64,000 bases of DNA, from NCBI RefSeq assembly GCF_030412785.1, contig NZ_CP125296.1:620001-684000 (forward strand), written 5' to 3'. The DNA is from Paraburkholderia sabiae (GTDB lineage: Bacteria > Pseudomonadota > Gammaproteobacteria > Burkholderiales > Burkholderiaceae). Positions 16,362 to 31,911 of the stretch are shown piece after piece. The position numbers and the translations under genes were made by a program. Every line of letters begins with the position of its first letter. Positions within the stretch are counted from its first letter, which is position 1. The notes under the pieces are model-generated. The model saw nothing but the letters and a program-made list of their open reading frames with translations, did not search any database and was not told where the DNA came from.

Positions 16362-16381
16362 TCGATTGCATTCGCTGTATG

Positions 16382-16416
16382 AAACCGCATGCGTAATTCG
16401 CGCATGCGGTTTTTTT
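16382..16416 (+). terminator. Rho-independent terminator after the porin
   Basis: AAACCGCATGCG and CGCATGCGGTTT form a 12-bp stem around a short loop and run into a T-tract, 20 bases after the porin stop. Confidence 0.9.
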
Positions 16417-16600
16417 ATGTCTTCAGGAAAGAATCCGCAAGAAAGTTGAAGTAAGCGTAAATGGCATTGATGAAAGGATTTGCACTCTTCATTTTGCTCG
16501 CATAAGACCGTTAGAAAAGAGGCAGCGTCGCGAATAAACGCTTTATGCGCCGGCGATGCAAAAGATCCTTAAGAGCAGCTATTGAAGAACGAGGAAGCGA

Positions 16601-17419: not shown

Positions 17420-17603
17420 ACGCGATGCTTAATTAGAAAAAACACGAAGCGTTGCGTGAAAGTTTGCTGCGGGACCCGATGCGAATGCCGCGCGCACTGC
17501 GGTATATTGCGTGGCTCATCTGCACGCGCGCATGAAGCGGATGATCGAAAAGCCGTCGACGAGACGGCGCCGTTTCATGTCGCGAGCCCGCTCCTCGAAC
17601 CGT

Positions 17604-18767
17604 ATGCCAGCCTTCGATCTTCGCACTGTCATTCTGATGTCGTCAGTCATGCCCGGGCTGATGGCGCTCGTGATGTTTTCGCTGGCGCGCGGCTTTCCCG
17701 CGAACATTCGCGGCGTCGGGCACTGGGCGTCGGGTGCGCTGGTCGTGTCGATCTCGGCGATGCTGCTTGCATTGCGCGGCGGCATCGCCGACTGGCTTTC
17801 GATCGTCGTCGCCAACGTCGGCATGATTCTCGGCACGGGATTGTGGCTGATCGGCAGTCAGATGTTTTTCGGGCAGCGTCCTGCGCGGCGCTTTATCGCG
17901 TTGCTTCTCGTCGTCGGCGTGATCGCGATGAGCTGGATGACGTGGGTGCATCCGTCGATCACGGGGCGCACGCTCTGCATGTGCGCGATCCTGACGGCGA
18001 CGTACGGACTGAACAGCCTGACGATGCTGCGCTTCGGCAAGGGCAGCCACAGTGCGACGTTCGTCGGCTCGATGCAGCTGTTACAGACGCTCGCGACGGC
18101 GCTGCGCGGCATCACGATGTTCGTGCCGGCGTGGGCGAGCACGGGGCTGTTCGCTCCCGACCTCATTCAGCGAATCTATCTGACGACGGGCGCATTGATG
18201 TCGCTGACGGTCTGTGTCGGCTTGCTGTTCGTCGCGATGGACCGGCTGCGCAATCAGCTCGAACAGCAGTCGTTCATGGATTCGTTGACGGGTCTGCTGA
18301 ATCGCCGCGCATTTCTCGGCGTGCATCAGCAGGAACGCGAAAAGACGATGCGGACGGGCGGCTTGCTGACGCTTCTGCTGATCGACCTCGATCACTTCAA
18401 GCAGGTCAACGACACGTATGGCCACGCGACGGGCGATCGCGTGCTGATCGACTTCGCCACCCGTGTCGCGGAAATGCTGCCCGCGCCGCATCATGTCGCG
18501 CGCTGGGGCGGCGAAGAGTTCGCCGTGCTGCTGCCGCGTGCGACGCCCGACGAGGCGAAGGAGCATGCGGAGCGGATACGACAGCGCGTCGCGCAGAAGG
18601 AAGATGCGGCGCTGCCGGCGTACACGTGCAGCATCGGCGTGTCGTGCATGGCGGCCAGCGAGGCGACCATCGAGCAACTCGCGCGCGATGCCGACGAAGC
18701 GCTGTATCGCGCGAAACGCAGTGGCCGGAACTGCGTTCAGGTCAGCGATCATGTGATTCTGCTTTAG
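17604..18767 (+). CDS. Membrane-anchored diguanylate cyclase (GGDEF domain)
   Basis: This protein of about 387 residues has six or seven predicted membrane helices in its N-terminal 200 residues and a C-terminal GGDEF domain that makes cyclic di-GMP from GTP. The active site reads GGEEF, preceded by LLIDLDHFKQVNDTYGHATGD, so the enzyme should be active. The inhibitory RxxD site normally upstream of GGEEF is missing (PAPHH occupies that place), suggesting no product inhibition. In-frame GTG/ATG codons occur upstream from 17511, but the ATG at 17604 begins the hydrophobic MPAFDLRTVILMSS segment, so it is preferred. It lies 184 bases after the flagellin, a motility/biofilm-themed neighbour. Confidence 0.85.
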   Translation: MPAFDLRTVILMSSVMPGLMALVMFSLARGFPANIRGVGHWASGALVVSISAMLLALRGGIADWLSIVVANVGMILGTGLWLIGSQMFFGQRPARRFIALLLVVGVIAMSWMTWVHPSITGRTLCMCAILTATYGLNSLTMLRFGKGSHSATFVGSMQLLQTLATALRGITMFVPAWASTGLFAPDLIQRIYLTTGALMSLTVCVGLLFVAMDRLRNQLEQQSFMDSLTGLLNRRAFLGVHQQEREKTMRTGGLLTLLLIDLDHFKQVNDTYGHATGDRVLIDFATRVAEMLPAPHHVARWGGEEFAVLLPRATPDEAKEHAERIRQRVAQKEDAALPAYTCSIGVSCMAASEATIEQLARDADEALYRAKRSGRNCVQVSDHVILL

Positions 18768-18908: not shown

Positions 18909-19595
18909 ATGTCAGACCTCAGAATCGACCGCAACGCGAAGACGCTACGCGAACTCACGCTCGACAAACTGCGCGGCGCGATCGTCCAGGGCTATTTCCG
19001 TCCCGGCGCGCGGCTCGTCGAACGCACGCTGTGCGATGAACTCGGTGTGAGCCGCACGGTAGTGCGCGAAGTGCTGCGGCATCTGGAAACGGAAGGGCTC
19101 GTCGAAATCGTCGCGCGGCAAGGGCCGATCGTCGCGCGGCTCGATCCGGCGCAAGTCGGCGAAATCTACGAACTGCGCGGGCTGCTCGAAGCGAACGCGG
19201 CGCGCGCCTGCGCCGAACAATCGACGCCCGAACTCGTGCAGCAGTTGCGCGACATCCGCAAGACCATCGAAGACGCGTTCGAGCAAAACGACCTGCCGCG
19301 CGTGCTCGAATACACGGAGCGCTTCTACGAGACGATGTTCGAGGGCGCGCAAAAGCATGTCTCGCTGGCTGTCGTGAAGACGCTGAATGCGCGGATCAAC
19401 CGGCTGCGCGCGCTGACCATCGCCGTGCCTGGCCGCGGCGGCGAGTCGAATCGCGAAATGAACAAGCTCCTCGATGCAATCGGGCGGCGCGATGGCGACG
19501 CGGCCTCGGCGGCGTCGATCGCGCATATCAAGCGCACGGCCGAACTCGCGCTCAACGCGCTCGCCCAGCAGGACGACCCGGGCGCTCAAGCTTAA
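18909..19595 (+). CDS. GntR-family regulator with FCD domain (regulator 1 of the LLM cluster)
   Basis: This 228-residue regulator has an N-terminal winged helix (GARLVERTLCDELGVSRTVV, then REVLRHLETEGLV) and a C-terminal FCD ligand-binding domain with the family's helix bundle. It is strikingly similar in its DNA-binding half to the protein encoded at 29134, with SRTVVREVLRHLETEGLV identical in both. It ends at a strong terminator and precedes the DUF1185 operon, whose leader carries two copies of the site also found in front of this gene. An in-frame TTG nine bases upstream is possible, but the ATG is preferred. Confidence 0.88.
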   Translation: MSDLRIDRNAKTLRELTLDKLRGAIVQGYFRPGARLVERTLCDELGVSRTVVREVLRHLETEGLVEIVARQGPIVARLDPAQVGEIYELRGLLEANAARACAEQSTPELVQQLRDIRKTIEDAFEQNDLPRVLEYTERFYETMFEGAQKHVSLAVVKTLNARINRLRALTIAVPGRGGESNREMNKLLDAIGRRDGDAASAASIAHIKRTAELALNALAQQDDPGAQA

Positions 19596-19613
19596 TCCCA
19601 CAAGCTTCCACCG

Positions 19614-19647
19614 AAGGCCGCCGGCAACCCCGGCGGCCTTTCTTTTT
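19614..19647 (+). terminator. Rho-independent terminator after GntR regulator 1
   Basis: AAGGCCGCCGG-CAACC-CCGGCGGCCTT is a perfect 11-bp stem followed by TCTTTTT, 18 bases after the regulator stop. It separates the regulator transcript from the downstream operon. Confidence 0.93.
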
Positions 19648-19728
19648 GCGCCTTCCGAACAGGTTGCTGCGTCGCACAAGCCACGTATTCCCAGCCGAAA
19701 CCGTGCCTGAAAGCGCGCGCTTCGTATC

Positions 19729-19740
19729 ATGGTATTCCAT
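19729..19740. promoter_or_regulatory. Operator site 1 of the LLM catabolic operon
   Basis: ATGGTATTCCAT has 4-bp inverted ends (ATGG/CCAT). It is repeated 42 bp downstream (19771-19782), about four helical turns, so regulators could bind both on one DNA face. Confidence 0.55.
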
Positions 19741-19770
19741 AAGACTTTGACTCTTGGTGTGGGCCATAAG

Positions 19771-19782
19771 ATGGCATACCAT
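19771..19782. promoter_or_regulatory. Operator site 2 of the LLM catabolic operon
   Basis: ATGGCATACCAT has the same inverted ATGG/CCAT ends as site 1 and lies 49 bases upstream of the DUF1185 start, downstream of a TTGACT (19747-19752). Binding here would block polymerase. Confidence 0.55.
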
Positions 19783-19831
19783 AATCTCAACGAACGACAT
19801 TCACGGCCTCGGCCCCGTCAGGAGAAACGAT

Positions 19832-20419
19832 ATGAAGCTGGAAGTTCGCAAGCTGGTCACGTACGTCGAAGAGACCTTTATCGAAGGCGGCAAGGCCGCC
19901 GCACGGCCGCTCAAGCTGTTCGGCGCGGCAGCCGTGCTGCGCAATCCGTGGGCGGGACGCGGCTTCGTCGAAGACCTGAAGCCGGAGATTCACGGCCTCG
20001 CGCCGCAACTCGGCGAAATGCTCACGGCGGAAATGCTGCGCGTCGCAGGGTCCGGCGATGCGATCGAAGGCTATGGCAAGGCGGCCGTCGTCGGCACGTC
20101 GGGCGAGATCGAACACGCGTCCGCGCTGATCCACACGCTGCGTTTCGGCAATCACTATCGCAAGGCCGTCGGCGCGAAGAGCTATCTGAGCTTCACGAAT
20201 CTGCGCGGCGGCCCGAACTGCCCGATCTCGATTCCGCTGATGCACAAGCACGACGAAGGCATGCGCTCACACTATCTGACCGTGCAGTTTTCGATCGTCG
20301 ATGCACCCGCGCCCGATGAACTCGTGATTGCGCTCGGCGCATCGATCGGCGGCCGTCCGCATCACCGGATTGGCGACCGCTATCAGGATCTGAAGGAGCT
20401 CGAATCCAATGAAGCGTGA
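19832..20419 (+). CDS. DUF1185 (amino acid synthesis, AA_synth) family protein
   Basis: This 195-residue protein belongs to the DUF1185/AA_synth family, which has known structures but no established reaction. The start is set by AGGAG at 19820-19824 before ATG-AAG-CTG. Visible features are the N-terminal RKLVTYVEETFIEGG, the glycine-rich middle RNPWAGRGFVEDL, and the conserved basic/amide stretch LRGGPNCPISIPLMHKHDEG. It has no signal peptide or membrane segment. It is the first gene of the operon and overlaps the hydrolase by 11 bases. In other genomes this family is found with flavin monooxygenases and amidase-like enzymes, so a hydrolytic or isomerising step on a nitrogenous substrate is possible but unproven. 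Confidence 0.85.
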   Translation: MKLEVRKLVTYVEETFIEGGKAAARPLKLFGAAAVLRNPWAGRGFVEDLKPEIHGLAPQLGEMLTAEMLRVAGSGDAIEGYGKAAVVGTSGEIEHASALIHTLRFGNHYRKAVGAKSYLSFTNLRGGPNCPISIPLMHKHDEGMRSHYLTVQFSIVDAPAPDELVIALGASIGGRPHHRIGDRYQDLKELESNEA

Positions 20420-21305
20420 GCTTGTCTCCGGGCGCGCCGTGTCGCGTGGCGAGGCCGCGGGCACGAGCTACAGCGTCTACGCGCCGCAGTCCGACGATGC
20501 GCGCGAAACGGTCGTGCTGATTCACGGCGTCGGCATGAACCAGAGCGTGTGGGCGCCGCAGATCGATGCGCTGACGGCTGCGTATCAGGTGATCGTGTAC
20601 GACATGCTCGGTCACGGCGAGAGCGCGCTGCCGACGCCCGCGCCGACGCTCGACGAATACGCGTCGCAACTCGAAGCGCTGCTCGACGCGATGAAGATCG
20701 AGCGGGCGCATGTGGTCGGGCATTCGATGGGTGCGCTCGTCGCACTCGAATTCGCGCTCACGCATCCGCAACGCACGCTGAGCGTCGCCGCGCTGAACGC
20801 CGTGTATGACCGCACGCCTGCGCAGCGCGAAGCCGTGATGTCGCGTGCGGCAACTCTCAGCGACGCGCCTGCTGCGGCCGGCGTCGACGCCACGCTGTCG
20901 CGCTGGTTCGGCGATCCCGTTCCCGGTCATCTGACGCAGGCGGCGCAGGCCGTGCGCGATCTGCTGCTGTCGGTCGATCCCATCGGTTATGCGCGCACGT
21001 ACCGGCTGTTCGCGAGTTCGGACGATGCGCATGTCGGCCGCCTCGCGCATCTCGCGGTGCCCGCGCTCTTTCTCACGGGCGAATGCGATCCGAACTCGAG
21101 CCCGTCGATGTCGCTCGCGATGGCAGACGTCGCGCCGTACGGCCGCGCCGAGGTCATCTCGAACGAGCGCCACATGATGAACGTCACCGATCCGGCGCGC
21201 GTCAACGAGCGGCTGCTCGCGTTCCTCGCGGAAGCCTCGGCAGCGAACGCGGCACACGCATTCGATACGACGAATGGATCGATCTCTGGAGAACGCCATG
21301 ACTGA
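20409..21305 (+). CDS. Alpha/beta-fold hydrolase (RutD/carboxylesterase-like)
   Basis: This 298-residue alpha/beta hydrolase has its nucleophile in GHSMGA, the oxyanion segment LIHGVGMNQSVW, a late acid in LTGECDPNSSP and the catalytic histidine in NERHMMNV. It is cytoplasmic. It resembles RutD and enol-lactone hydrolases, which act after an oxygenase or ring opening. It overlaps both neighbours (11 bases with DUF1185, 8 with the flavin reductase), so the three are translationally coupled. The substrate is unknown. Confidence 0.88.
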   Translation: MKRELVSGRAVSRGEAAGTSYSVYAPQSDDARETVVLIHGVGMNQSVWAPQIDALTAAYQVIVYDMLGHGESALPTPAPTLDEYASQLEALLDAMKIERAHVVGHSMGALVALEFALTHPQRTLSVAALNAVYDRTPAQREAVMSRAATLSDAPAAAGVDATLSRWFGDPVPGHLTQAAQAVRDLLLSVDPIGYARTYRLFASSDDAHVGRLAHLAVPALFLTGECDPNSSPSMSLAMADVAPYGRAEVISNERHMMNVTDPARVNERLLAFLAEASAANAAHAFDTTNGSISGERHD

Positions 21306-22257
21306 GTCCAACGCCACGGAACAGGCTTTCGACATCGCCAACTTTCGGCGCGCGCTCGGCGCGTTCGTGACGGGCGTAACGGTCGTCACGACGATGCAGC
21401 CGGACGGCTCGCCGCGCGGCTTCACGGCGAATTCGTTCACGTCGGTGTCGCTCGATCCGCCGTTGATTCTCGTGTGCATCGCGAAGACGGCGTCGAGCTA
21501 TCAGGTGTTCTCGGAGACGCGCCACTTCGCCGTGAGCGTGCTCGCTGAGGATCAGAAGAGTGTGTCGGGCGTATTCGCGTCGAAGGCTGTCGACAAGTTC
21601 GAGCAGGTCGCATGGCAAAAGCGCTCGACGGGCGCGCCTGTGATCGACAACGCCGCTGCGAGTTTCGACTGCACGACGCATGAAGTCGTCGATGCCGGCG
21701 ATCACATCATTCTGATCGGACGTGTCGTCGATTTTGTTCATACGAGTTCATCGCCGCTCGGTTATTGCCGGGGCGCGTATGTGAACTTCAGTCTGTCGCA
21801 GGAAGCGCTGGCAGCAGCGGGCCCGAGCGCGCATGTGGGCGCGATTCTCGAACATCGCGACGGCATCGTGTTGCTCGACACGCCCAATGGTTTGCAATTG
21901 CCGACGGGCAACAAGCTCGAACCGGCAAGCGACGCGAAAAGCCTGCAAGGCGTGCTCGCCAAACTCGGCCTCGAAGTGCATCTCGACTTCCTGTTCGCCG
22001 TATTCGAATCGGGCACAGGACAAACGCCGAGTGTACAAATCTATTATCGCGGCCGTGTGATTCAAAGCGGCGCTGCGTGGATCGACAGCTCGATCCGCAT
22101 CGTGCCTCTGGCGCAGATTCCGTGGAGCGAATTGCGCGACGACGCCGTGCGCTCGATGCTCGAACGCTATGTGCGCGAACGCAGCGAAGACGCGTTCGGC
22201 ATCTATGTCGGCGACACGGAAGCGGGCACCGTGCAGACGCTCGCGCTCGCTCACTGA
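21298..22257 (+). CDS. Flavin reductase fused to a C-terminal degenerate Nudix-like domain
   Basis: This 319-residue protein supplies reduced flavin to the monooxygenase encoded next. Residues about 8-165 are a RutF/HpaC-type flavin reductase (FRRALGAFVTGVTVVTTM, GFTANSFTSVSLDPPLILVC, GRVVDFVH). Stand-alone members end near residue 170, but this one continues with about 150 residues. These read like a Nudix fold (GIVLLDTPNGLQLPTGNKLE, then a helix and GLEVHLDFLFAVFES). The catalytic Nudix box (GxxxxxExxxxxxxREUxEExGU) is not preserved, so it may bind rather than cleave a nucleotide or product. The ATG at 21298 has GGAGA upstream. Confidence 0.82.
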   Translation: MTESNATEQAFDIANFRRALGAFVTGVTVVTTMQPDGSPRGFTANSFTSVSLDPPLILVCIAKTASSYQVFSETRHFAVSVLAEDQKSVSGVFASKAVDKFEQVAWQKRSTGAPVIDNAAASFDCTTHEVVDAGDHIILIGRVVDFVHTSSSPLGYCRGAYVNFSLSQEALAAAGPSAHVGAILEHRDGIVLLDTPNGLQLPTGNKLEPASDAKSLQGVLAKLGLEVHLDFLFAVFESGTGQTPSVQIYYRGRVIQSGAAWIDSSIRIVPLAQIPWSELRDDAVRSMLERYVRERSEDAFGIYVGDTEAGTVQTLALAH

Positions 22258-22273
22258 AGGGAGAACACACATC

Positions 22274-23317
22274 ATGAAGTTTTCACTGTTCCTGCACATG
22301 GAGCGATACGACGACACGACGTCGCATCGCGAACTGTTCGACCAGATGACCGAACTCGTGCAGATGGCCGAACGCGGCGGCTTCGAGACGGCCTGGATCG
22401 GCGAGCATCACGCGATGGAATTCACGATCGCGCCGAATCCGTTCGTCAATCTCGCGTACCTCGCTGCGAAAACGGAGCGCATTCGTCTGGGTACAGGCAC
22501 GGTGATCGCGCCGTTCTGGCATCCGATCGCACTCGCTGGGCAAGCGGGCATGGTCGATGTCGCGAGCAACGGGCGGCTCGATCTGGGCATCGCGCGCGGA
22601 GCCTACAACTTCGAATACGAACGCCTGTTGCCGGGACTCGACGCGATGACGGCAGGCGCGCGCATGCGCGAACTGGTGCCTGCATTGCGCAAGCTCTTCA
22701 AGGGCGACTATGCGCATGAGGGCGAGTTCTGGTCGTGGCCAAAGACGACGCCCGTGCCGCGTCCCATTCAACAACCGCATCCGCCGATGTGGCTCGCTGC
22801 GCGCGATCCGAATTCGCATGCGTTTGCGGTCGCGAACGGCTGCAACGTGCAGGTGACGTCGCTTGCTTCCGGCGATGCGGAAGTCGTCAGTCTGATGGAG
22901 CGCTTCAACGCCGCGTGCGCCGCGAATCCCGACGTGCCGCGTCCGCAAGTGATGATGCTGATGCACACGTTCGTCGGTGCGAATGCGGCGGAAGTGGATG
23001 AAGGCGTCGAAGATCTCGCGCGTTTCTATCGCTACTTCAGCAAGTGGTTCAAGAACGAGCGACCCATCGAACAGGGCTTTATCGAGCCGCTGACGGACGC
23101 CGATGTCGAGATGTTCCCGCAGTATTCGTCGGAAGCGATTCGACGCAACCTCGTGATCGGCGAGCCGAAACAGGTGATTGCGCGTCTGAAGGGTTATGAA
23201 GAACTCGGCTATGACCAGTACAGCTTCTGGCTCGACAGTCATATGAGTTTCGAGCGCAAGCGCAAGTCGCTGGAGCTGTTCATCTCCGACGTAATGCCTG
23301 CTTTCGCAGCGCGCTAA
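22274..23317 (+). CDS. LLM-class flavin-dependent monooxygenase (bacterial luciferase family)
   Basis: This 347-residue TIM-barrel monooxygenase uses FMNH2 or FADH2 from the flavin reductase. Family hallmarks are the N-terminal KFSLFLHMERYDD strand, ETAWIGEHHAMEF, RIRLGTGTVIAPFWHP, GRLDLGIARGAY and the late NLVIGEPKQVIARL. RutA, nitrilotriacetate and pyridine ring-opening enzymes are relatives, so oxidative cleavage of a C-N bond or heterocycle is a reasonable class of reaction. It lies 16 bases after the reductase. This is the likely first committed step of the operon's pathway. Confidence 0.9.
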   Translation: MKFSLFLHMERYDDTTSHRELFDQMTELVQMAERGGFETAWIGEHHAMEFTIAPNPFVNLAYLAAKTERIRLGTGTVIAPFWHPIALAGQAGMVDVASNGRLDLGIARGAYNFEYERLLPGLDAMTAGARMRELVPALRKLFKGDYAHEGEFWSWPKTTPVPRPIQQPHPPMWLAARDPNSHAFAVANGCNVQVTSLASGDAEVVSLMERFNAACAANPDVPRPQVMMLMHTFVGANAAEVDEGVEDLARFYRYFSKWFKNERPIEQGFIEPLTDADVEMFPQYSSEAIRRNLVIGEPKQVIARLKGYEELGYDQYSFWLDSHMSFERKRKSLELFISDVMPAFAAR

Positions 23318-23353
23318 ATCCAGCGTTGCCGAACCCTCAACGGAGTGGCGAAC

Positions 23354-24826
23354 ATGGTTCAGCGGTTCCAGCAATACATCGACGGTGCGTTCGAAGATGC
23401 GCGCGAGCACTTCGACAGCACCGATCCCTCGACGGGCGACGTGTGGGCGCAGATGCCCGCCGCAAGCGCGGACGATGTCGACCGTGCGGTGCGCGCCGCG
23501 CATCGCGCGCTGAACGATCCGGCGTGGGCGAACCTCACGGCGAGTGCACGCGGCAAGCTGCTGTACAAGCTCGCCGATCTCGTCGCGCAACACGCGCCGC
23601 GTCTCGCAGAGCTCGAAACGCAGGACACGGGCAAGATCATTCGCGAGACGCGCAGCCAGATCGGCTACGTCGCCGAGTACTACCGCTATTACGCGGGCGT
23701 CGCCGACAAGATTCAGGGCGCGTGGCTGCCCGTCGATAAACCCGATATGGAAGTGACGCTGCGGCGCGAACCCGTCGGCGTCGTCGCGGGCATCGTGCCG
23801 TGGAATTCGCAGCTGTTTCTGTCCGCAGTGAAGGTCGGTCCCGCACTCGCGGCAGGCTGCACGATCGTCCTGAAGGCCTCCGAAGACGGCCCCGCGCCCT
23901 TACTCGAATTCGCGCGGCTCGTGCATGAAGCGGGCTTTCCGAAGGGCGTCGTCAACATCGTGACGGGCTTCGGCAACGACTGCGGACGCACGCTGACGAG
24001 TCATCCTCTCGTGTCGAAGATTGCCTTTACGGGTGGGCCCGAAACGGCGCGGCACGTCGTGCGCAATTCGGCTGAGAACCTCGCGGCGATGTCACTGGAA
24101 CTGGGCGGCAAATCGCCTGTGCTCGTATTCGACGACGCCGACCTCGACAGCGCATCCAATGCCGTGATTGCAGGCATTTTCGCGGCGACGGGGCAAAGCT
24201 GTGTCGCAGGTTCACGTCTTGTCGTGCAGCGCGGCATTCGTGAAGCGCTGATCGAACGGATCGTGTCGAAGGCGCAAGACATTCGCATCGGCAATCCGCA
24301 GGACATGGCGACCGAAATGGGCCCGCTCGCGACGCGCCGTCAACTCGAACACATCCAGCAGGTGCTGCGCGCGAGTGTCGAAGCGGGCGGGCGCATTGTA
24401 ACGGGCGGCAAGCAGCCGGACAACATGACGAAAGGCAACTACTTTCTGCCGACCATCGTCGATTGTCCGGATGCAAAAGTGCCGAGCGTGATGGAGGAAC
24501 TGTTCGGACCCGTGCTGAGCGTCGTCACATTCGATACGGAAGCCGATGCCATCGCGCTTGCCAACGACACGCGTTACGGCCTCGCATCGGGCGTATTCAC
24601 GCGCGATCTGACGCGCGCGCATCGGCTCACGCGTGCGTTGCGCGCGGGCATCGTGTGGGTCAACACGTATCGCGCGGTGTCGCCCATCGTGCCGTTCGGC
24701 GGCTATGGGTTGAGCGGACTTGGACGCGAAGGCGGACTCGATGCCGTGCTCGATTACACGCGCACGAAATCCGTGTGGATCCGCACATCGGACGAGCCGA
24801 TTGCCGATCCGTTCGTGATGCGCTGA
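23354..24826 (+). CDS. NAD(P)-dependent aldehyde dehydrogenase
   Basis: This 490-residue aldehyde dehydrogenase of the betaine/semialdehyde group has the general-base region LELGGKSPVLVFDDAD, catalytic cysteine in GQSCVAGSR, cofactor motif FTGGPETA and the C-terminal FGGYGLSGLGREGGLD. It probably oxidises an aldehyde released by the monooxygenase/hydrolase steps. The ATG at 23354 with GGAG eight bases upstream is preferred over a GTG at 23345. Spacing of 36 bases to the monooxygenase indicates the same operon. Confidence 0.9.
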   Translation: MVQRFQQYIDGAFEDAREHFDSTDPSTGDVWAQMPAASADDVDRAVRAAHRALNDPAWANLTASARGKLLYKLADLVAQHAPRLAELETQDTGKIIRETRSQIGYVAEYYRYYAGVADKIQGAWLPVDKPDMEVTLRREPVGVVAGIVPWNSQLFLSAVKVGPALAAGCTIVLKASEDGPAPLLEFARLVHEAGFPKGVVNIVTGFGNDCGRTLTSHPLVSKIAFTGGPETARHVVRNSAENLAAMSLELGGKSPVLVFDDADLDSASNAVIAGIFAATGQSCVAGSRLVVQRGIREALIERIVSKAQDIRIGNPQDMATEMGPLATRRQLEHIQQVLRASVEAGGRIVTGGKQPDNMTKGNYFLPTIVDCPDAKVPSVMEELFGPVLSVVTFDTEADAIALANDTRYGLASGVFTRDLTRAHRLTRALRAGIVWVNTYRAVSPIVPFGGYGLSGLGREGGLDAVLDYTRTKSVWIRTSDEPIADPFVMR

Positions 24827-24853
24827 TCTGCCAACCTCGCACCGGGAGTTCGC

Positions 24854-25168
24854 ATGTTCTACGAAATCCGCACGTACCGCATCAAGACGGGTGCCGTGCC
24901 TGCCTATCTGAAGCTCGTCGAGGAAGAAGGCATTGCGTTGCAGAAGCGGTATCTGGGGCAACTGATCGGCTACTTCTTTTCGGAAGTTGGTCCGTTGAAT
25001 CAGATCGTGCATATCTGGGCCTATCCGAGCCTCGACGAGCGCGAAAGCAGACGCGCGGCGCTCGCCGAAGACCCGGCATGGCAGGCTTTTGCGCCGAAGA
25101 TTCAGGCGCTGATGGAAGAGATGGAAAACAAGATCATGAAGCCAGCGCGATTTTCGCCGCTTGCCTGA
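24854..25168 (+). CDS. NIPSNAP-family protein
   Basis: This 104-residue protein has the NIPSNAP signature start FYEIRTYRIKTGAVPAYL and the middle LIGYFFSEVGPLNQIVHIWAYPS. The domain forms a ferredoxin-like dimeric alpha-beta barrel, often found next to monooxygenases and in degradation gene sets, but its reaction is generally undefined. It lies 27 bases after the aldehyde dehydrogenase and 83 bases before the ABC genes. Confidence 0.88.
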   Translation: MFYEIRTYRIKTGAVPAYLKLVEEEGIALQKRYLGQLIGYFFSEVGPLNQIVHIWAYPSLDERESRRAALAEDPAWQAFAPKIQALMEEMENKIMKPARFSPLA

Positions 25169-25251
25169 GAGAGTGCTTTCGACGGGCCGCCCGTATCACA
25201 TCACGTCACACCGAATCGCATCGACACAAGACATATCCCTTGGAGACAGAC

Positions 25252-26271
25252 ATGAGCAGCAGAAGCACCACGTATTTCGCGCCGCTGATCGCGCTTTGCG
25301 CGGCGACGCCGGCACTCGCCGCGGACCCGATCGTCTTCACGAGCTGGGGCGGCACCACGCAATCGTCGCAGCAGAAGAACTGGGCGCAGCCGTTCACGCA
25401 GGCGACGGGCATCAACGTGCTGATGGACGGCCCGACCGACTACGGCAAGCTGAAAGCGATGGTCGATAGCGGCAATGTGAACTGGGATGTCGTCGATGTC
25501 GAAGGCGACTTCGCTTACGCCGCGCAAAAAGCCGGGCTGATCGAGCCGATCGATTATTCCGTCGTGAAGAAGGATGAACTCGATCCGCGCTTCTCGACAC
25601 CGGATGCAGTAGGCAGCTTCTATTATTCGTTCGTGCTCGGCTACAACAAGTCGAAGTACACGGGTGCGCAGCCGCAAAACTGGGCCGATCTGTTCGACAC
25701 GAAGAAATTCCCCGGCAAGCGCACGTTCTACAAGTGGTCCGCGCCCGGCGTGCTCGAAATCGCGCTGCTCGCCGACGGCGTGCCCGCCGACAAGCTCTAT
25801 CCGCTCGACCTCGACCGCGCGTTCAAGAAGCTCGACACGATCAAGGGCGACATTGTCTGGTGGAGCGGCGGCGCGCAATCGCAACAACTGCTGGCTTCGG
25901 GTGAAGCGCCTATCGGCATGTTCTGGAATGGCCGTCTGCATGCACTCGAACAGACGGGCGTGCCTGTAGGCATTTCATGGAACCAGAACCTGACGGCCGC
26001 CGACATGCTGGTGATTCCGAAGGGCGCGAAGCATAAGGCCGAAGCGATGAAGTACCTCGCGGCTGCAACGAGCGCACAGGCGCAGGCGAAGTTCGCCACC
26101 GACACAGGCTATGCGCCTGTCAACGTGAAGTCGGCCTCGCTGATGTCGCCGGCGATCGCGAAGACGCTGCCCGATCAGTACAAGACCTCGCAGATCAATC
26201 TCGACATGAAGTACTGGGCCGAGAACCGCGACGCGATCGCCAAGCGCTGGTACGCGTGGCAGTCCAAGTAA
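25252..26271 (+). CDS. ABC transporter substrate-binding protein, PotD-like
   Basis: This 339-residue periplasmic binding protein has a signal peptide of about 23 residues (ending ALAA before DPIVFTSWGG). The mature start IVFTSWGGTTQSSQ and the later WWSGGAQSQQLLASGE place it with the polyamine/opine/putrescine class of extracellular solute-binding proteins. It leads the importer genes that follow, whose ligand should be the substrate of the upstream enzymes. The start has GGAG at 25242-25245. Confidence 0.88.
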   Translation: MSSRSTTYFAPLIALCAATPALAADPIVFTSWGGTTQSSQQKNWAQPFTQATGINVLMDGPTDYGKLKAMVDSGNVNWDVVDVEGDFAYAAQKAGLIEPIDYSVVKKDELDPRFSTPDAVGSFYYSFVLGYNKSKYTGAQPQNWADLFDTKKFPGKRTFYKWSAPGVLEIALLADGVPADKLYPLDLDRAFKKLDTIKGDIVWWSGGAQSQQLLASGEAPIGMFWNGRLHALEQTGVPVGISWNQNLTAADMLVIPKGAKHKAEAMKYLAAATSAQAQAKFATDTGYAPVNVKSASLMSPAIAKTLPDQYKTSQINLDMKYWAENRDAIAKRWYAWQSK

Positions 26272-26329
26272 GTGTGCTGCACATCAAAGCCGCACATGAG
26301 CATTGCACAGTCATCGGAGTGGAGACACC

Positions 26330-27214
26330 ATGCCTAATGTCCTGAGTACCGTCGCGCATCCACCCGCGACGGACGCGCGCCGGCGGCGCGACTGGCGCAG
26401 CATTCGCCTGCTCGTGCCTGCCATGCTGCTGCTCGTGATCTTCTTCCTGCTGCCCGTGCTGTCGCTGCTGTTACGTAGCGTGCTCGAGCCGTCGCCGGGG
26501 TTGCACAACTACGCGCAGCTGGTCGGCTCGACCACTTATCTGCGCGTGTTCGGCAACACGTTTCTGGTGGCGACGGTCGTGACGCTGGCGACGCTCGCCA
26601 TCGGCTTCCCGACTGCGTGGCTGCTCGCCATCGCACCGCGCAAGCTGAGTTCGCTGCTGTTCGCGATCCTGCTGCTGTCGATGTGGACCAATCTGCTGGC
26701 ACGCACTTTCGCGTGGATGGTGCTGCTGCAACAGACGGGCCCGATCAACCGCATGCTGATGGCGCTCGGCATCATCAGCGAGCCGTTGACGCTCGTGAAC
26801 AACCTGATCGGCGTGACGATCGGCATGACGTACATCATGCTGCCGTTTCTCGTGATGCCGTTGCATGCGACGTTGCGCAGCATCGATCCGTCGACGCTGC
26901 GGGCCGCCGCGATCTGCGGAGCGAGCCGCTGGCAGGCGTTCTGGCGAATCCTGGTGCCGCTCGCGATGCCGGGCATTGCATCGGGTGCGTTGATGGTGTT
27001 CGTGATGGCGCTCGGTTATTTCGTCACGCCTGCACTGCTTGGCGGCGCGTCGTACATGATGCTCGCGGAACTGATCGCGCAACTCGTGCAGCAGTTGCTG
27101 AACTGGGGTCTCGCTGGTGCTGCCGCGTTCGTGCTGCTTGCGGTGACGCTCGCGCTGTATGCGTTGCAATTGCGCTTCACGGATAGCGCAAATGCAACTG
27201 CCGGAGGACGCTGA
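26330..27214 (+). CDS. ABC transporter permease, PotB-like
   Basis: This 294-residue inner-membrane permease has six predicted helices and the EAA-type loop LRAAAICGASRWQAFWRILVPL, which contacts the ATPase. It is the first of two permeases of the polyamine-type importer. The ATG at 26330 is set by GGAG nearby. It ends one base before the second permease start. Confidence 0.9.
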   Translation: MPNVLSTVAHPPATDARRRRDWRSIRLLVPAMLLLVIFFLLPVLSLLLRSVLEPSPGLHNYAQLVGSTTYLRVFGNTFLVATVVTLATLAIGFPTAWLLAIAPRKLSSLLFAILLLSMWTNLLARTFAWMVLLQQTGPINRMLMALGIISEPLTLVNNLIGVTIGMTYIMLPFLVMPLHATLRSIDPSTLRAAAICGASRWQAFWRILVPLAMPGIASGALMVFVMALGYFVTPALLGGASYMMLAELIAQLVQQLLNWGLAGAAAFVLLAVTLALYALQLRFTDSANATAGGR

Positions 27215-27215
27215 C

Positions 27216-28010
27216 ATGTTGCTCGATTTCGACCGTTTAGGCGCATTGCGCTGGGCCTTGCTAGCGATCGGCGCTGCCGTCGCGCTCTTCCTTCTGCTGC
27301 CGATCGTGTTCATCGTCGCGCTGTCATTCGGGGATTCGCAGTGGCTGATCTTCCCGCCGCCGGGCTGGACGCTGGAGTGGTATCGCCAGCTGTTCACCGA
27401 CGCCGGCTGGATCGACTCGCTGCTGACGAGCGTCAAGCTCGCGGTGATCGTGATGGTGCTGTCCGTTTTCATCGGCTTTCTCGCGTCGCTTGCACTCGTG
27501 CGCGGCAAGTTTCGCGGACGCAACGCCGTCAAGGCGTTCTTTCTCACGCCGATGGTGTTGCCTGTCGTCGTGCTGGCCGTCGCGCTGTATGCGTTCTTTC
27601 TGCGCATCGGCATGAACGGCACGATGACGGGCTTCGTGATCGGGCATCTGATCATCGCGTTGCCGTTCTCGGTCATTTCGATCAGCAATTCGCTCGCGAG
27701 CTTCGACACCGCACTCGAAGATGCCGCGCTGATCTGCGGCGCGTCGCCGCTCGAAGTGAAGCTGCGTGTGACCTTACCCGCGATCCGGCTGGGCCTGTTC
27801 GCTGCCGCTATCTTCGCGTTCCTTGCATCGTGGGACGAAGTGGTCGTGTCGATCTTCATGGCGAGCCCCACGTTGCAGACGCTGCCCGTGCGTATCTGGG
27901 CAACGCTGCGGCAAGACCTGACACCTGTCGTCGCGGCAGCGTCCTCGCTGCTTGTCGGCTTGACGACTGTATTGATGCTGGCGGGCGCTGTGTTGCGCCG
28001 CGCGCGCTAA
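27216..28010 (+). CDS. ABC transporter permease, PotC-like
   Basis: This 264-residue second permease has six predicted helices and the EAA loop EDAALICGASPLEVKLRVTL. The ATG at 27216 follows GGAGG at 27203-27207 and only one base separates it from the previous stop, so the pair is coupled. It forms the heterodimeric channel with the preceding protein. Confidence 0.9.
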   Translation: MLLDFDRLGALRWALLAIGAAVALFLLLPIVFIVALSFGDSQWLIFPPPGWTLEWYRQLFTDAGWIDSLLTSVKLAVIVMVLSVFIGFLASLALVRGKFRGRNAVKAFFLTPMVLPVVVLAVALYAFFLRIGMNGTMTGFVIGHLIIALPFSVISISNSLASFDTALEDAALICGASPLEVKLRVTLPAIRLGLFAAAIFAFLASWDEVVVSIFMASPTLQTLPVRIWATLRQDLTPVVAAASSLLVGLTTVLMLAGAVLRRAR

Positions 28011-28036
28011 TCGATGTAATGATTGAGGTGAACGAC

Positions 28037-29134
28037 ATGACTGCATTCCTGCAAATACAGCGCCTGCGCAAGACTTACGACGACGTCGTCGCGATCGACA
28101 ACGTGTCGCTCGATGTGCGCAAAGGCGAGTTCATGACGTTTCTCGGGCCGTCGGGTTCGGGCAAGAGCACGACGCTTTATATCGTCGCGGGCTTTCAGGA
28201 GCCGAGCGAAGGGCGCGTGCTGATCGACGGCAAGCCGCTACTCTCCGTTGCGCCGAACAAGCGCAACATCGGCATGGTGTTTCAGCGCTACACGCTGTTT
28301 CCGCATCTGACCGTCGGCGAGAATGTCGCGTTCCCGTTGCGCGTGCGCCGCCGTCCCGATGCTGAAGTGAAGGCGAAAGTCGAGCAGATGCTCAAGCTCG
28401 TGCATCTGTCCGAGTGCCGCGACCGGATGCCCGCGCAACTGTCGGGCGGACAACAGCAGCGCGTGGCAATTGCGCGCGCGCTGGCCTACGATCCGCCTGT
28501 GCTGCTGATGGACGAGCCGCTGTCGGCGCTCGACAAGAAGCTGCGCGAAGAAATTCAGCTTGAATTACGGCGTATTCACCAGGAGACAGGCGTCACGATT
28601 CTTTATGTGACGCACGATCAGGAAGAAGCGCTGCGTCTGTCGGATCGCATTTCCGTGTTCAACAAAGGGCGCATCGAGCAGGTCGGTACGGGCGAAGAGT
28701 TGTATGCGAATCCGTCGTCGCGCTTCGTCGCGAGCTTTATCGGCAATTCGAATTTCCTGCCGGTGCGCGTGACGGCGCATAGCGATGGCCGTATGAACGG
28801 CGTGTTCCCGAATGGTCACGAAGTGGCGTCGGGCAGCTTCAATCCGGCGCTCACGGCGGGCGAGGACGGCACGCTGATGATCCGCCCCGAGCAGATGCGC
28901 ATTCACTCGTTGCAGGATACGTCGAAGGCAAATGGCGCGAGCGGATTGCCCGTGACCGTGCGCGACATCACGTATCTCGGCGATGCGATGCACTACGCAG
29001 TCGCGACGCCGTGGCAGCAGGAGATTTCGATTCGCATGCCGGCGGGGCAGCGGCATGACAGCGGATTGTCGATCGGCACGCAGGCGCTCGTCGATTGGGA
29101 TGCGCGCGACGTGCGCCTCTTCGCTCAAGCTTGA
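28037..29134 (+). CDS. ABC transporter ATP-binding protein, PotA-like
   Basis: This 365-residue ATPase has Walker A (GPSGSGKST), Q-loop FQRYTLFPHLT, signature LSGGQQQR, Walker B LLMDEPLSALD and the switch histidine in YVTHDQEEALRLSD. A C-terminal TOBE domain (about 285-365) is present, as in PotA/MalK-type subunits. An ATG at 28019 is open, but the one at 28037 follows GAGGTG at good spacing. It completes the importer and overlaps the second GntR gene by one base. Confidence 0.92.
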   Translation: MTAFLQIQRLRKTYDDVVAIDNVSLDVRKGEFMTFLGPSGSGKSTTLYIVAGFQEPSEGRVLIDGKPLLSVAPNKRNIGMVFQRYTLFPHLTVGENVAFPLRVRRRPDAEVKAKVEQMLKLVHLSECRDRMPAQLSGGQQQRVAIARALAYDPPVLLMDEPLSALDKKLREEIQLELRRIHQETGVTILYVTHDQEEALRLSDRISVFNKGRIEQVGTGEELYANPSSRFVASFIGNSNFLPVRVTAHSDGRMNGVFPNGHEVASGSFNPALTAGEDGTLMIRPEQMRIHSLQDTSKANGASGLPVTVRDITYLGDAMHYAVATPWQQEISIRMPAGQRHDSGLSIGTQALVDWDARDVRLFAQA

Positions 29135-29838
29135 TGACTGTTATGAGTCACGCGCTGCCTTCACTGAAAGTCGAACGTCGCACGACGACGTTGCGCGAAC
29201 TCGCGCTGGAGAAGATGCGCACGGCCATACTCGAAGCGCATTTTCATCCTGGGGAGCGGCTCGTCGAGCGCTCGCTGTGCGAGGAGCTGGGTGTAAGCCG
29301 AACCGTGGTGCGCGAGGTGTTGCGGCATCTGGAAACGGAAGGTCTCGTCGATTCGATCCCGAACCAGGGGCCGATTGTCGCGATGCTCGATTCGGATACG
29401 GCCGCGGAGATCTACGAAATTCGCGGGTTGCTTGAGGGCGATGCGGCAGCGGCCTGCGCGTTGCATGCCGATGAAGCCGTGTTCGCGCATCTCGGCGAAT
29501 GCATCGCGCGCATTCAGCAGGCGTTCGACATGCATGCGCATCAGACCGTGCGCGAATTGACGACCGTCTTCTATGAAGCGATGTTTCATGGAGGCGGCAA
29601 GAAGGTGTCGTGGGAGATCGTGCAGACGCTGAATGCGCGCATCAATCGTCTGCGCGCGATGACGATTGCTTCCGATGATCGTGGGCGGCAGGCCGTGCAG
29701 GAGATGAACCGCATACTCGATGCGCTGCGTGCCCGCGATGCGCAGCGCGCACGTGAGGCGGCGAGAGCGCATGTGGAGCGTGTCGCGGATATTGCGGCTG
29801 AACTGCTGCAGCAGACGGTTGGGGAGGCGTCGGCTTGA
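29134..29838 (+). CDS. GntR-family regulator with FCD domain (regulator 2 of the LLM cluster)
   Basis: This 234-residue regulator is a close paralogue of the one at 18909. The wing-helix block GERLVERSLCEELGVSRTVV differs from it by only a few residues, and LNARINRLRAMTIA recurs in the FCD domain. Its start overlaps the ATPase stop (TGATG), so it is translated as the last gene of the operon. Two paralogues bracketing one operon suggest either hetero-oligomers or two inducers read at one operator. The C-terminal sensor halves diverge more than the DNA-binding halves. Confidence 0.88.
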   Translation: MTVMSHALPSLKVERRTTTLRELALEKMRTAILEAHFHPGERLVERSLCEELGVSRTVVREVLRHLETEGLVDSIPNQGPIVAMLDSDTAAEIYEIRGLLEGDAAAACALHADEAVFAHLGECIARIQQAFDMHAHQTVRELTTVFYEAMFHGGGKKVSWEIVQTLNARINRLRAMTIASDDRGRQAVQEMNRILDALRARDAQRAREAARAHVERVADIAAELLQQTVGEASA

Positions 29839-29963: not shown

Positions 29964-30443
29964 ATGTCGAGCAACACAGAAATCCGTCCGCCGCTGCCGC
30001 CGTTCACACGCGAAACCGCGATCCAGAAAGTGCGGCAAGCCGAAGACGGCTGGAATTCACGCGACCCGTCCAAAGTCGCACTGGTGTATTCACAGGACAC
30101 CTGGTGGCGTAACCGTGCCGAGTTCGTCCACAACCGCGACGAAGTGCGCGCGTTCCTCGCGCGCAAATGGGGCAACGAACTCGAGTACCGTCTGATCAAG
30201 GAACTGTGGGCCTTCACGGACAACCGCATCGCAGTGCGCTTCGCCTATGAATGGCGCGACGACGCGGGCAACTGGTTCCGCTCGTACGGCAACGAGAACT
30301 GGGAGTTCGGGCCTGACGGCCTGATGCATCATCGCCATGCAAGCATCAACGATCTGCCGATCAAGGAAAGCGAGCGCAAGTTTTTCTGGCCGCTCGGCCG
30401 CCGACCCGACGATCATCCTGGCCTGAGCGAACTCGACCTCTAG
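29964..30443 (+). CDS. DUF1348 / SnoaL-like (NTF2 superfamily) protein
   Basis: This 159-residue protein is a single NTF2-like domain of the DUF1348 family, with the conserved N-terminal [20 protein letters not shown] and the aromatic-rich core [20 protein letters not shown]. The fold forms a cone-shaped pocket used by some isomerases and hydrolases, but this family has no defined reaction. It has its own leader with GAGAGAAG before the start, and is not obviously in an operon. Confidence 0.85.
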
Positions 30444-30588: not shown

Positions 30589-31911
30589 GTGATTCAAGGT
30601 ATTGCCCGCTTCTTTACGCAGGTGGTTCACCGCTATCTGCCCGATCCCCTCATTTTCGCGCTGCTTCTGACGGCGATAACGTTTGCACTGTCGTTGGGCC
30701 TCACGCCCAGGACGCCCGACGAACTCGTGTTCATGTGGGGCAGCGGCTTCTGGAATCTGCTCGCTTTCACGATGCAGATGGCGCTTATCCTCGTGACGGG
30801 CCATGCATTGGCGACGTCGGGGCCCGTCAAGAATGCGTTGTCCGCATTGGGCGGCCTGGCGAAAACACCCGTGCAAGGCACGATGCTCGTCGCGCTGGTG
30901 AGCGGCATCGCGTGTGCGATCAACTGGGGCTTCGGTCTCGTGCTGGGCGCGATGTTCGCGCGCGAAGTGGCGAGGCGCGTGCGCGGCGTCGACTACCGCT
31001 TGCTGGTCGCGGCTGCGTACATGGGCTTTCTCACGTGGCATGGCGGCTTGTCGGGTTCGGTACCGCTCGTCGCGGCGACCAAGGGCAATCCGATGGAGAA
31101 GGTGATCGGCCTGATCCCCGTCTCGCAGACGCTCTTCACCGGCTACAACCTCTTCATCACGGCTGCGCTGATCGTGATGCTGCCGCTGCTGGTGCGCGCG
31201 ATGATGCCGCGCGCCGACGAAGTCGTATCCGTCGATCCCGCGCTCTTCACGGATGAACCAGTAGTCGAACGCAAGATCACGGCTGATTCGACGTGGGCCG
31301 AGCGCATTGAAGAGAGCCGCATTCTTTCTATTCTGGTTGCGTTGCTGATCGCTGTCTATCTCGTGATTCGTTTTACGAAGAAAGGCTTCAGCCTCGACAT
31401 CGATACCGTCAACATCGTGTTTCTCGCAGCAGGCATTCTGCTGCACAAGACGCCGATGGCGTATGCACGCGCGATCGGCACTGCGGCACGCGGTACAGCG
31501 GGCATCATGATCCAGTTCCCGTTCTATGCGGGCATTCAGGCGACGATGGATCACTCGGGTCTTGCGGGCGTCATCACGAACTGGTTCATCGAAATCGCAA
31601 ACGTCCACACGTTCCCGCTGCTGACGTTCCTGAGTTCCGCCGTGATCAACTTTGCGGTGCCGAGCGGCGGCGGCCACTGGGTCGTGCAGGGGCCGTTCGT
31701 AATGCCCGCCGCCAAAGCGATCGGCGCCGATCTCGGCAAGTCCGCGATGGCGATTGCGTACGGCGAAGCATGGACCAATATGGCGCAGCCGTTCTGGGCA
31801 CTGCCTGCACTGGCAATTGCGGGCCTTGGCGTGCGCGACATCATGGGCTATTGCGTGACGGCGTTGCTGTTCTCGGGTGTGATCTTTGTCGCCGGGTTGT
31901 ATCTCTTCTGA
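30589..31911 (+). CDS. atoE: Short-chain fatty acid transporter, AtoE family
   Basis: This 440-residue inner-membrane protein has about 11-12 predicted helices and the family motifs HRYLPDPLIFALLLTAITF at the N-terminus, INWGFGLVLGAMFAREVARR in the middle and INFAVPSGGGHWVVQGPF near the C-terminus. AtoE-type carriers import acetoacetate and butyrate. No ato genes for CoA activation are adjacent, so the exact substrate is uncertain. The start is a GTG with CTGGAGAC upstream. Confidence 0.88.
   Translation: MIQGIARFFTQVVHRYLPDPLIFALLLTAITFALSLGLTPRTPDELVFMWGSGFWNLLAFTMQMALILVTGHALATSGPVKNALSALGGLAKTPVQGTMLVALVSGIACAINWGFGLVLGAMFAREVARRVRGVDYRLLVAAAYMGFLTWHGGLSGSVPLVAATKGNPMEKVIGLIPVSQTLFTGYNLFITAALIVMLPLLVRAMMPRADEVVSVDPALFTDEPVVERKITADSTWAERIEESRILSILVALLIAVYLVIRFTKKGFSLDIDTVNIVFLAAGILLHKTPMAYARAIGTAARGTAGIMIQFPFYAGIQATMDHSGLAGVITNWFIEIANVHTFPLLTFLSSAVINFAVPSGGGHWVVQGPFVMPAAKAIGADLGKSAMAIAYGEAWTNMAQPFWALPALAIAGLGVRDIMGYCVTALLFSGVIFVAGLYLF

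Follow-up and report, generated by a model that had tools for sequence, protein, structure and literature searches.

The gene cluster at positions 18909–29838 of a 64,000-nucleotide stretch of Paraburkholderia sabiae DNA (contig NZ_CP125296.1, positions 620,001 to 684,000; the window) is probably a tgn-type operon for the degradation of trigonelline (N-methylnicotinate) or a very close N-methyl-pyridinium carboxylate, judging from sequence comparisons that leave us fairly confident. The basis of this assignment is observed: the genes and their homologies, a conserved gene set, the phylogeny of the luciferase-like flavin-dependent monooxygenase (LLM), a common palindrome, and the co-inheritance of an ATP-binding cassette (ABC) importer with the monooxygenase. 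The cluster belongs to a known pathway type, and its new element is the identity of the importer family. An earlier note on this DNA had described an uncharacterised oxidative operon, and its interpretation is partly supported. Its outline, an imported cyclic nitrogen compound whose ring is opened by the LLM with reduced flavin before an aldehyde dehydrogenase and a hydrolase act, is most likely correct. The word uncharacterised does not hold, as the genes correspond to those of the trigonelline pathway: some LLM relatives bear the name trigonelline monooxygenase, and Acinetobacter baylyi has the same core genes.

Perchat and colleagues reportedly worked out the trigonelline pathway of A. baylyi ADP1 in 2018. 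A two-component flavin oxygenase is said to cleave the C5–C6 bond of trigonelline, an aldehyde dehydrogenase to oxidise the ring-opened product, and a hydrolase to generate methylamine, formate, CO2, and succinate semialdehyde. The last step, by a succinate-semialdehyde dehydrogenase, is reportedly 'assisted by a conserved hypothetical protein', which could be DUF1185. Opening of the trigonelline ring by TgnA/TgnB is also stated in the accessible part of a published paper. In the window, the LLM is most likely TgnA, the flavin reductase TgnB, the aldehyde dehydrogenase TgnC, and the hydrolase TgnD, with the DUF1185 protein in addition. Identities between window and A. baylyi proteins are 60% for the LLM, 67% for the aldehyde dehydrogenase, 64% for DUF1185, and 38% for both the hydrolase and the reductase. 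The flavin reductase adjoins the oxygenase, and a TgnC-like aldehyde dehydrogenase and a TgnD-like hydrolase are in the same operon. Membership of the LLM in the TgnA family is indicated by its identity to the A. baylyi protein, by a clade with a Shimodaira–Hasegawa-like approximate likelihood-ratio (SH-aLRT) value of 100, and by the names of its relatives, which are annotations, not experiments. The RefSeq name 'flavin-dependent trigonelline monooxygenase oxygenase component' is carried by three Acinetobacter LLM clusters (P0121–P0123) that are 91–92% identical to the A. baylyi protein. Under JGI annotation, six relatives (P0025, P0041, P0068, P0073, P0089, and P0116) with 65–71% identity to the window LLM are called 'flavin-dependent trigonelline monooxygenase, oxygenase component'; these are among the 120 matches listed of 3512 LLM relatives, the rest having generic names or none. 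Strict orthology to A. baylyi TgnA is uncertain, because the host genome encodes a second LLM that is closer to the A. baylyi protein. A TgnE-type succinate-semialdehyde dehydrogenase is absent from the window cluster, which is not taken as defining because many relatives also show no second aldehyde dehydrogenase within the stretch examined.

The core order DUF1185, hydrolase, reductase, LLM, aldehyde dehydrogenase is not due to chance, because it recurs in Acinetobacter, Xanthomonas, Burkholderiales, Rhizobiales, and Rhodobacterales. The loci compared were found with an Acinetobacter LLM as query, which tilts the set towards A. baylyi-like loci, and the best 80 of 547 confirmed candidates were scanned (the named loci). 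A DUF1185 gene lies no more than 6 kb from the LLM in 79 of these 80 loci, the exception being a locus whose contig ends there (L086); at this distance the hydrolase is present in 80, the flavin reductase in 79, and the aldehyde dehydrogenase in 80. Within the same distance, a binding protein at least 60% identical to that of the window is found in 32 of the 80 loci and a NIPSNAP gene in one. The NIPSNAP gene accompanies the LLM in 17 of 30 clusters from the Rhizobiaceae family and in 14 of 15 Agrobacterium-type clusters.

The A. baylyi locus available for comparison, from DSM 14961 and not from ADP1 itself (L020), contains a GntR gene, DUF1185, hydrolase, reductase, LLM, and aldehyde dehydrogenase, with the core in the order of the window. 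It has in addition an NCS1-type permease, a second aldehyde dehydrogenase, and a 388-residue protein that looks porin-like and has no Pfam match, whereas the window has an ABC importer of the Atu4243 type, a NIPSNAP gene, and two GntR genes. The likeness extends to the importer in the cluster on pSymA of Sinorhizobium meliloti 1021, where GntR, DUF1185, hydrolase, reductase, LLM, aldehyde dehydrogenase, NIPSNAP, binding protein, two permeases, and ATPase follow one another as in the window. The proteins are 40–72% identical to those of the window, and the cluster ends in an extra aldehyde dehydrogenase. We take this cluster to be the trc genes. It lies complete at 3 kb from nifB, which is followed by nifA, a FixC-like gene, and nifHDK. 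According to the accessible text of PMC4207669, wild-type S. meliloti grows on trigonelline and a strain without pSymA does not, and a 1991 paper by Goldmann and colleagues has a title ('genes essential for trigonelline ...') that agrees with a pSymA cluster near nif genes. The Atu4243 region, represented by a genome whose binding protein is 100% identical to Atu4243 (L179), shares this core and continues with NIPSNAP, binding protein, permeases, and ATPase; a GntR gene and two palindromes lie upstream; unlike in the window, an ABC importer of the amino-acid type and an Fe-type alcohol dehydrogenase are inserted between GntR and DUF1185.

In a quick tree that includes more distant LLMs, drawn with a midpoint root, the LLMs of the window, A. 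baylyi, S. meliloti, and the Agrobacterium type fall together on the same side of a branch whose SH-aLRT value is 100. A division into two sister clades, suggested by FastTree, was dropped, as the window type becomes a set of deeper branches once more distant LLMs are added. The window lineage is thus not bracketed by lineages with known substrate in this tree; the same compound is its presumed substrate. When 86 A. baylyi-like and 125 window-like LLMs are aligned, 99 positions are invariant (>97% in both sets) and eight separate the sets. The motifs GEHH, PFWHP, and RGAYxxEY are kept, and the catalytic motifs are common to both sets.

The host genome (9.9 Mb in four contigs) contains a second core on contig 1, with DUF1185 66%, LLM 63%, and aldehyde dehydrogenase 66% identical to those of the window, and more like A. 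baylyi. A second importer lies about 12 kb from the LLM of this core; its binding protein is 91–95%, its permeases 95% and 88%, and its ATPase 83% identical to the window proteins. Beside it are genes for both GntR types (78% and 68%), an aldehyde dehydrogenase with 35% identity, and a 3' fragment of a window-type flavin reductase. The presence of one importer type and one palindrome at two host loci argues for one substrate. In some loci of Burkholderia and Paraburkholderia, the importer is of the window type, the core next to it is A. baylyi-like, and the stretch contains no window-type LLM (L007, L025–L028, L032, L043, L044, L046–L048, L050, L051, L055, and L060); some of these mosaic loci also carry a window-type reductase or hydrolase. 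A related set with DUF1185, hydrolase, reductase, aldehyde dehydrogenase, and an LLM of 42–46% identity is found at L128, L129, L162, L163, L167, and L168. Four plasmid cases of this set have ABC genes of the amino-acid or glycine-betaine type nearby, and three have a carboxymuconolactone-decarboxylase-like gene. This set perhaps serves a third substrate.

The importer had been called polyamine-type in the earlier note, a label that does not stand, as the nearest solved relatives of the binding protein are the γ-aminobutyrate (GABA)-binding Atu4243 (PDB 4eq7/4euo, 69% identical) and Pf622, the scaffold of the iGABASnFR brain sensors for GABA. General polyamine import was rejected: the scores are 59 bits for PotD (cut-off 582) and 27 bits for PotF (cut-off 636). 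In the alignment with 4eq7, the window protein has R228 and D251 at the places of Arg203 and Asp226, and both residues are kept in 99 of 99 locus matches with at least 60% identity, some loci overlapping. Planamente and colleagues reportedly described Arg203 and Asp226 in 2012 as GABA contacts of Atu4243. By homology, the window protein is a member of the Atu4243/Pf622 family, and may bind GABA. The PDB entry 4euo is Atu4243, and the accessible parts of published work describe this protein of Agrobacterium as highly specific for GABA, a 'selective GABA-binding protein'. That Atu4243 binds GABA is certain, but the physiological significance of this binding is open to doubt.

Across four genome surveys, close relatives of the binding protein occur only in genomes that also carry a TgnA-family gene, in most cases an adjoining one. 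Among 144 genomes of the genus, a TgnA-type LLM (at least 61% identity) is present in 57, of the window type in 31, of the A. baylyi type in 29, and of both types in three. A close binding protein (at least 79% in the matches) is present in 56. The two occur together in 56 genomes, the LLM alone in one (G452), the binding protein alone in none, and neither in 87 (Fisher p = 1e-39, uncorrected for shared ancestry). For 30 of the 31 window-type LLM genes, the start of a close binding protein is at most 3.1 kb away. Such a binding protein is within 15 kb of 20 of the 30 A. baylyi-like LLM genes; of the ten that remain, one is separated from it by 24 kb and nine lie on contigs that lack it. Conversely, 50 of 63 binding-protein places lie within 15 kb of a TgnA-type LLM, and one of 12 diverged binding proteins lies 1.2 kb from a more distant LLM (G470). 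In 398 genomes of the phylum, host included, a binding protein of at least 60% identity is present in nine, each of which carries a TgnA-family LLM (at least 53%) as well, at a distance of at most 9 kb in the eight genomes other than the host; binding proteins of 37–43% identity have no TgnA link in these 398 genomes. The reverse does not hold: a TgnA-family LLM is present in 20 genomes of this sample, of which 11 lack a binding protein at this identity level, so that other importers would serve them.

The remaining two surveys concern the relatives of Atu4243. In 247 genomes of a Rhizobiaceae-type family (around G555), a relative at E 1e-90 is found in 30 (67–95% identity), and all 30 are inside a cluster with DUF1185, hydrolase, reductase, LLM, and aldehyde dehydrogenase. 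In 39 genomes of the genus of G1069, taken as Agrobacterium because one member encodes a protein 100% identical to Atu4243, a relative is found in 16, and all 16 are in such clusters. That member (G1129) matches Atu4243 over residues 2–313. Its plus-strand frames of at least 90 residues, a threshold that very small genes could escape, were read backwards from Atu4243: NIPSNAP, aldehyde dehydrogenase, LLM, reductase, hydrolase, DUF1185, Fe-type alcohol dehydrogenase, ATPase, permease, family-3 binding protein, and GntR/FCD. By consecutive numbering, the GntR/FCD gene, eleven genes before Atu4243, would be Atu4232. Two palindromes are present in this cluster, one upstream of the first importer gene and one upstream of DUF1185. 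According to the accessible part of a 2014 review, Atu4232 represses atu4243 fully, and what relieves the repression was left open. We predict that trigonelline or an early product is the inducer and a physiological ligand of the Atu4243 system. Atu42xx names were not found together with trigonelline in a limited literature search, and the link may be in print elsewhere.

The link of Pf622 is weaker. Two genomes, G802 and G778, encode proteins that match Pf622 with 96% identity over the 270 residues compared, and in both a TgnA-family LLM (53%) lies 6.5–7.4 kb away. A flavin reductase is present in the stretch from G802 (L123, beside the LLM) and in that of a related genome (L122, 86%), but DUF1185, hydrolase, and aldehyde dehydrogenase were not seen in these two stretches, which makes the association less firm than that of Atu4243. 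In a third genome (L124, 84%), DUF1185, hydrolase, and aldehyde dehydrogenase are all present.

The 236 bases between the first GntR gene and DUF1185 contain two copies of a conserved palindrome, ATGGTATTCCAT and ATGGCATACCAT. The exact form ATGGYATRCCAT occurs at three places in the host genome, and its reversed control at none. The places are position 19771 of the window, the upstream region of the second importer, and one unrelated place. The latter (C4:98349–98360) has neighbours with no visible relation, one of which looks, by eye, like a gene for an AI-2E-family transporter. At both importer loci of the host, the palindromes form a pair 41–42 bases apart, of which the second member is looser. 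The motif ATGG-N-AT-N-CCAT was sought within 300 bases upstream of DUF1185 in other loci. The survey left out the window itself, four loci that overlap the window or the second core (L001, L002, L091, and L100), and one that is too short (L088), and counted five identical upstream stretches once. The motif was found in eight of nine window-type loci, 55 of 123 A. baylyi-like loci, three of five with an LLM at 50–57% identity, and none of six with a more distant LLM; the background is 11 of 2408 random 300-base stretches from the same loci. Relatives of the first GntR regulator flank many tgn-type clusters. The GntR/FCD proteins are presumed to be repressors of the operon, responding to an inducer.

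Several observations weigh against trigonelline as the substrate of the window cluster. The hydrolase and the reductase are only 38–40% identical to their A. baylyi and S. meliloti counterparts, and the window-type LLMs branch below the group of A. baylyi and S. meliloti, the lineages with known phenotype. The pSymA cluster is a candidate for the cause of growth on trigonelline, which another TgnA-like gene on pSymA, if present, might also explain. Among relatives of the binding protein, the one whose ligand was measured binds GABA, not trigonelline. The palindrome is not universal, being lacking upstream of DUF1185 in more than half of the A. baylyi-like loci; in A. baylyi itself the copy sits before the second aldehyde dehydrogenase, and the second core of the host has an imperfect one upstream of its DUF1185, with one mismatch. 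Finally, both core types are present together in three of the 144 genus genomes, host included, and back to back in Caballeronia (L037, L039, and L041), which could mean two substrates. The window lineage would then perform the same chemistry on another N-methyl or N-substituted pyridinium carboxylate, such as an isomer of trigonelline, and leave trigonelline to the second core. The eight systematic LLM differences, of which three (positions 37, 38, and 42) are beside the GEHH motif, and the deep branching are in line with such a division. It is nonetheless considered unlikely, as the importers of the two host loci are of one type and share the paired palindrome, LLM motifs such as GEHH are retained, and methylamine-type genes lie beside a window-type cluster as well as beside that of A. 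baylyi. Homarine was set aside as a less likely substrate: a limited title search gave no homarine pathway, and the accessible part of a published paper argues that TgnA/TgnB is unlikely to act on it.

A true GABA importer is compatible with a trigonelline operon, since both compounds yield succinate semialdehyde and one operon could serve both. The described specificity of Atu4243, the conservation of Arg203 and Asp226, and a succinate-semialdehyde dehydrogenase annotated in a Rhizobium etli cluster speak for it. However, no GABA aminotransferase is annotated in the five clusters that were read with their (incomplete) annotation, and a TgnA-type gene accompanies the close binding protein in each of the 56 genus genomes that have one. 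GABA import is thus kept as a possible but rather doubtful reading of the importer, and an operon for GABA alone was set aside for want of the aminotransferase in these annotated clusters. In the Rut pathway, an LLM opens the ring with reduced flavin, with a separate reductase and an alpha/beta hydrolase. A pyrimidine or other Rut-like N-heterocycle pathway could be suspected from the joint occurrence of RutD-, RutF-, and LLM-like enzymes, and the earlier note had rightly kept the cluster apart from it. The window proteins reach less than half of the curated cut-offs for RutD (111 against 238.5 bits) and RutF (104 against 254.8 bits), on which grounds this pathway was rejected. No RutA model is among the 25 best of 32 families for the LLM (weakest 32 bits), and no cluster protein has a Pfam match to families typical of RutB, RutC, or RutG. 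A Rut-like function is regarded as extremely improbable.

In the proposed trigonelline pathway, the importer (25252–29134) would take up the trigonelline zwitterion, and the flavin reductase would feed reduced flavin mononucleotide (FMN) to the LLM, which would open the pyridinium ring by breaking its C5–C6 bond. From the resulting semialdehyde, or its cyclic hydroxy-lactone form, the aldehyde dehydrogenase would produce an N-methylformamido-methylene succinate, which the alpha/beta hydrolase would split into methylamine, formate, CO2, and succinate semialdehyde. The latter could enter the tricarboxylic acid cycle through a succinate-semialdehyde dehydrogenase encoded elsewhere, a candidate being located beside the second importer. 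The GntR/FCD proteins would act as repressors at ATGGYATRCCAT palindromes and release the operon once substrate or an early product appears. The DUF1185 protein would be an enzyme or helper acting on an enamide-type intermediate. Methylamine could be assimilated by N-methylglutamate-type genes of the host. Directly upstream of a window-type cluster in Aquabacterium are genes for a type III glutamate-ammonia ligase, a class II amidotransferase, GlxC, and an FMN-type glutamate synthase, which we read as an N-methylglutamate pathway. Two of these four were sought in the host, and both are present (73% and 82% identity), with some 0.28 Mb between them and the window cluster. The A. baylyi cluster is preceded by sarcosine-oxidase-like genes and by a gene that, by eye, looks FolD-like.

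The DUF1185 protein scores 236 bits with the PF06684 profile (gathering cut-off 27), and its solved relatives are 2qtp and 3byq. Invariant in 15 diverse members are R6, E13, K83, E92, E94, H95, R110, R145, E163, R175, and R179 (window numbering). Among these, E92, E94, H95, R175, and R179 appear to match the charged cluster described in the accessible part of a published DUF1185 paper. Members of 54–60% identity accompany the more distant LLM set. At 35–39% identity, five annotated records were examined, besides three without annotation. In two of the five, tandem DUF1185 pairs adjoin a 6-hydroxynicotinate reductase, a molybdenum-hydroxylase-type gene, and a UPF0280 protein; these pairs (L160 6426–7585 and L164 6983–8148) apparently belong to a different, reductive nicotinate-type pathway. 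In one record, DUF1185 adjoins an amidohydrolase, with succinate-semialdehyde dehydrogenase and xanthine-dehydrogenase-type genes nearby, and in two it has no such neighbours. The association of some distant members with 6-hydroxynicotinate reductase could point to an enzyme of pyridine-ring catabolism. The trigonelline and nicotinate routes have an intermediate type in common, the N-acyl enamine of a carboxylic acid. DUF1185 might, speculatively, act on such an intermediate as an isomerase, lactone opener, or hydrolase.

The features of the cluster are listed in Table 1. Open frames, starts, and Pfam matches all agree with the observed cluster, and every gene is on the plus strand. The tight packing reported in the earlier note is real: DUF1185 and hydrolase overlap by 11 bases, hydrolase and reductase by 8 bases, and the remaining gaps are 1–83 bases. 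Its list of nine genes overlooked a tenth structural gene, NIPSNAP, between the aldehyde dehydrogenase and the binding protein. The list is otherwise correct, including the GntR gene at the end of the cluster; the other GntR gene, within the stretch that the note had delimited, is separated from DUF1185 by the 236 bases. The flavin reductase matches 3rh7 with E 3e-61 over residues 11–324 of the 327-residue reading from 21274. Large Paraburkholderia replicons give the best matches in the plasmid collection and reach 98% protein identity for DUF1185 and 93–95% for the LLM. The cluster is preceded at 15210–18767 by genes for a porin, a short flagellin, and a GGDEF protein. Directly downstream is a DUF1348 protein, weakly SnoaL-like (29964–30443); a short-chain fatty acid transporter (30589–31911) and a histone-deacetylase-domain protein (31974–33008) lie beyond.

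Table 1. Genes and palindromes of the predicted trigonelline operon, in window coordinates
Feature	Position	Strand	Evidence
GntR/FCD (FadR-type) regulator 1, predicted operon repressor	18909–19595	+	PF00392 and PF07729
Operator-like palindrome ATGGTATTCCAT, copy 1	19729–19740	+	
Operator-like palindrome ATGGCATACCAT, copy 2	19771–19782	+	
DUF1185/AA_synth protein, first gene of the catabolic core, putative function	19832–20419	+	PF06684, E 2e-70
Alpha/beta hydrolase, TgnD-like, predicted cleavage of N-methylformamido-methylene succinate	20409–21305	+	PF00561; A. baylyi counterpart 38%, equal gene position
Flavin reductase, TgnB-like, extra C-terminal domain as in 3rh7	21298–22257	+	PF01613
LLM flavin-dependent monooxygenase, TgnA-like, predicted ring opener	22274–23317	+	PF00296, E 1e-60
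Aldehyde dehydrogenase, TgnC-like	23345–24826	+	PF00171; 67% to A. baylyi and 69% to S. meliloti counterpart
NIPSNAP-family small protein	24854–25168	+	PF07978, E 3e-37
Periplasmic binding protein, Atu4243/Pf622 (GABA-binding) family	25252–26271	+	4eq7, E 1e-145, 69% identity
ABC permease 1 (alternative TTG start at 26303 possible)	26330–27214	+	PF00528
ABC permease 2	27216–28010	+	PF00528
ABC ATPase with TOBE_2 domain	28037–29134	+	PF00005 and PF08402
GntR/FCD regulator 2, last gene of the operon	29143–29838	+	PF00392 and PF07729

Taken jointly, Atu4243 and Pf622 would be receptors of operons for pyridinium betaines of the trigonelline type, trigonelline would lift the repression by Atu4232, the window cluster and its second copy would form one such regulon, and DUF1185 would be an enzyme of pyridine-ring catabolism acting on N-acyl-enamine carboxylates. 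We give this combination an even chance of being right. If true, the cluster would offer an answer to the question left in print in 2014 of what relieves the full repression of atu4243, a question that thereby becomes testable. A natural ligand class would be predicted for the protein family of the GABA sensors, with a bearing on sensor cross-reactivity. The evidence also suggests a case for reassigning DUF1185, named 'amino acid synthesis', to N-heteroaromatic catabolism, and gives an operon formerly called 'uncharacterised' a trigonelline pathway that can be tested. According to the accessible part of published work, trigonelline comes from plants and occurs in legume nodules, and the regulon may therefore mark plant association in Paraburkholderia, rhizobia, and Agrobacterium.

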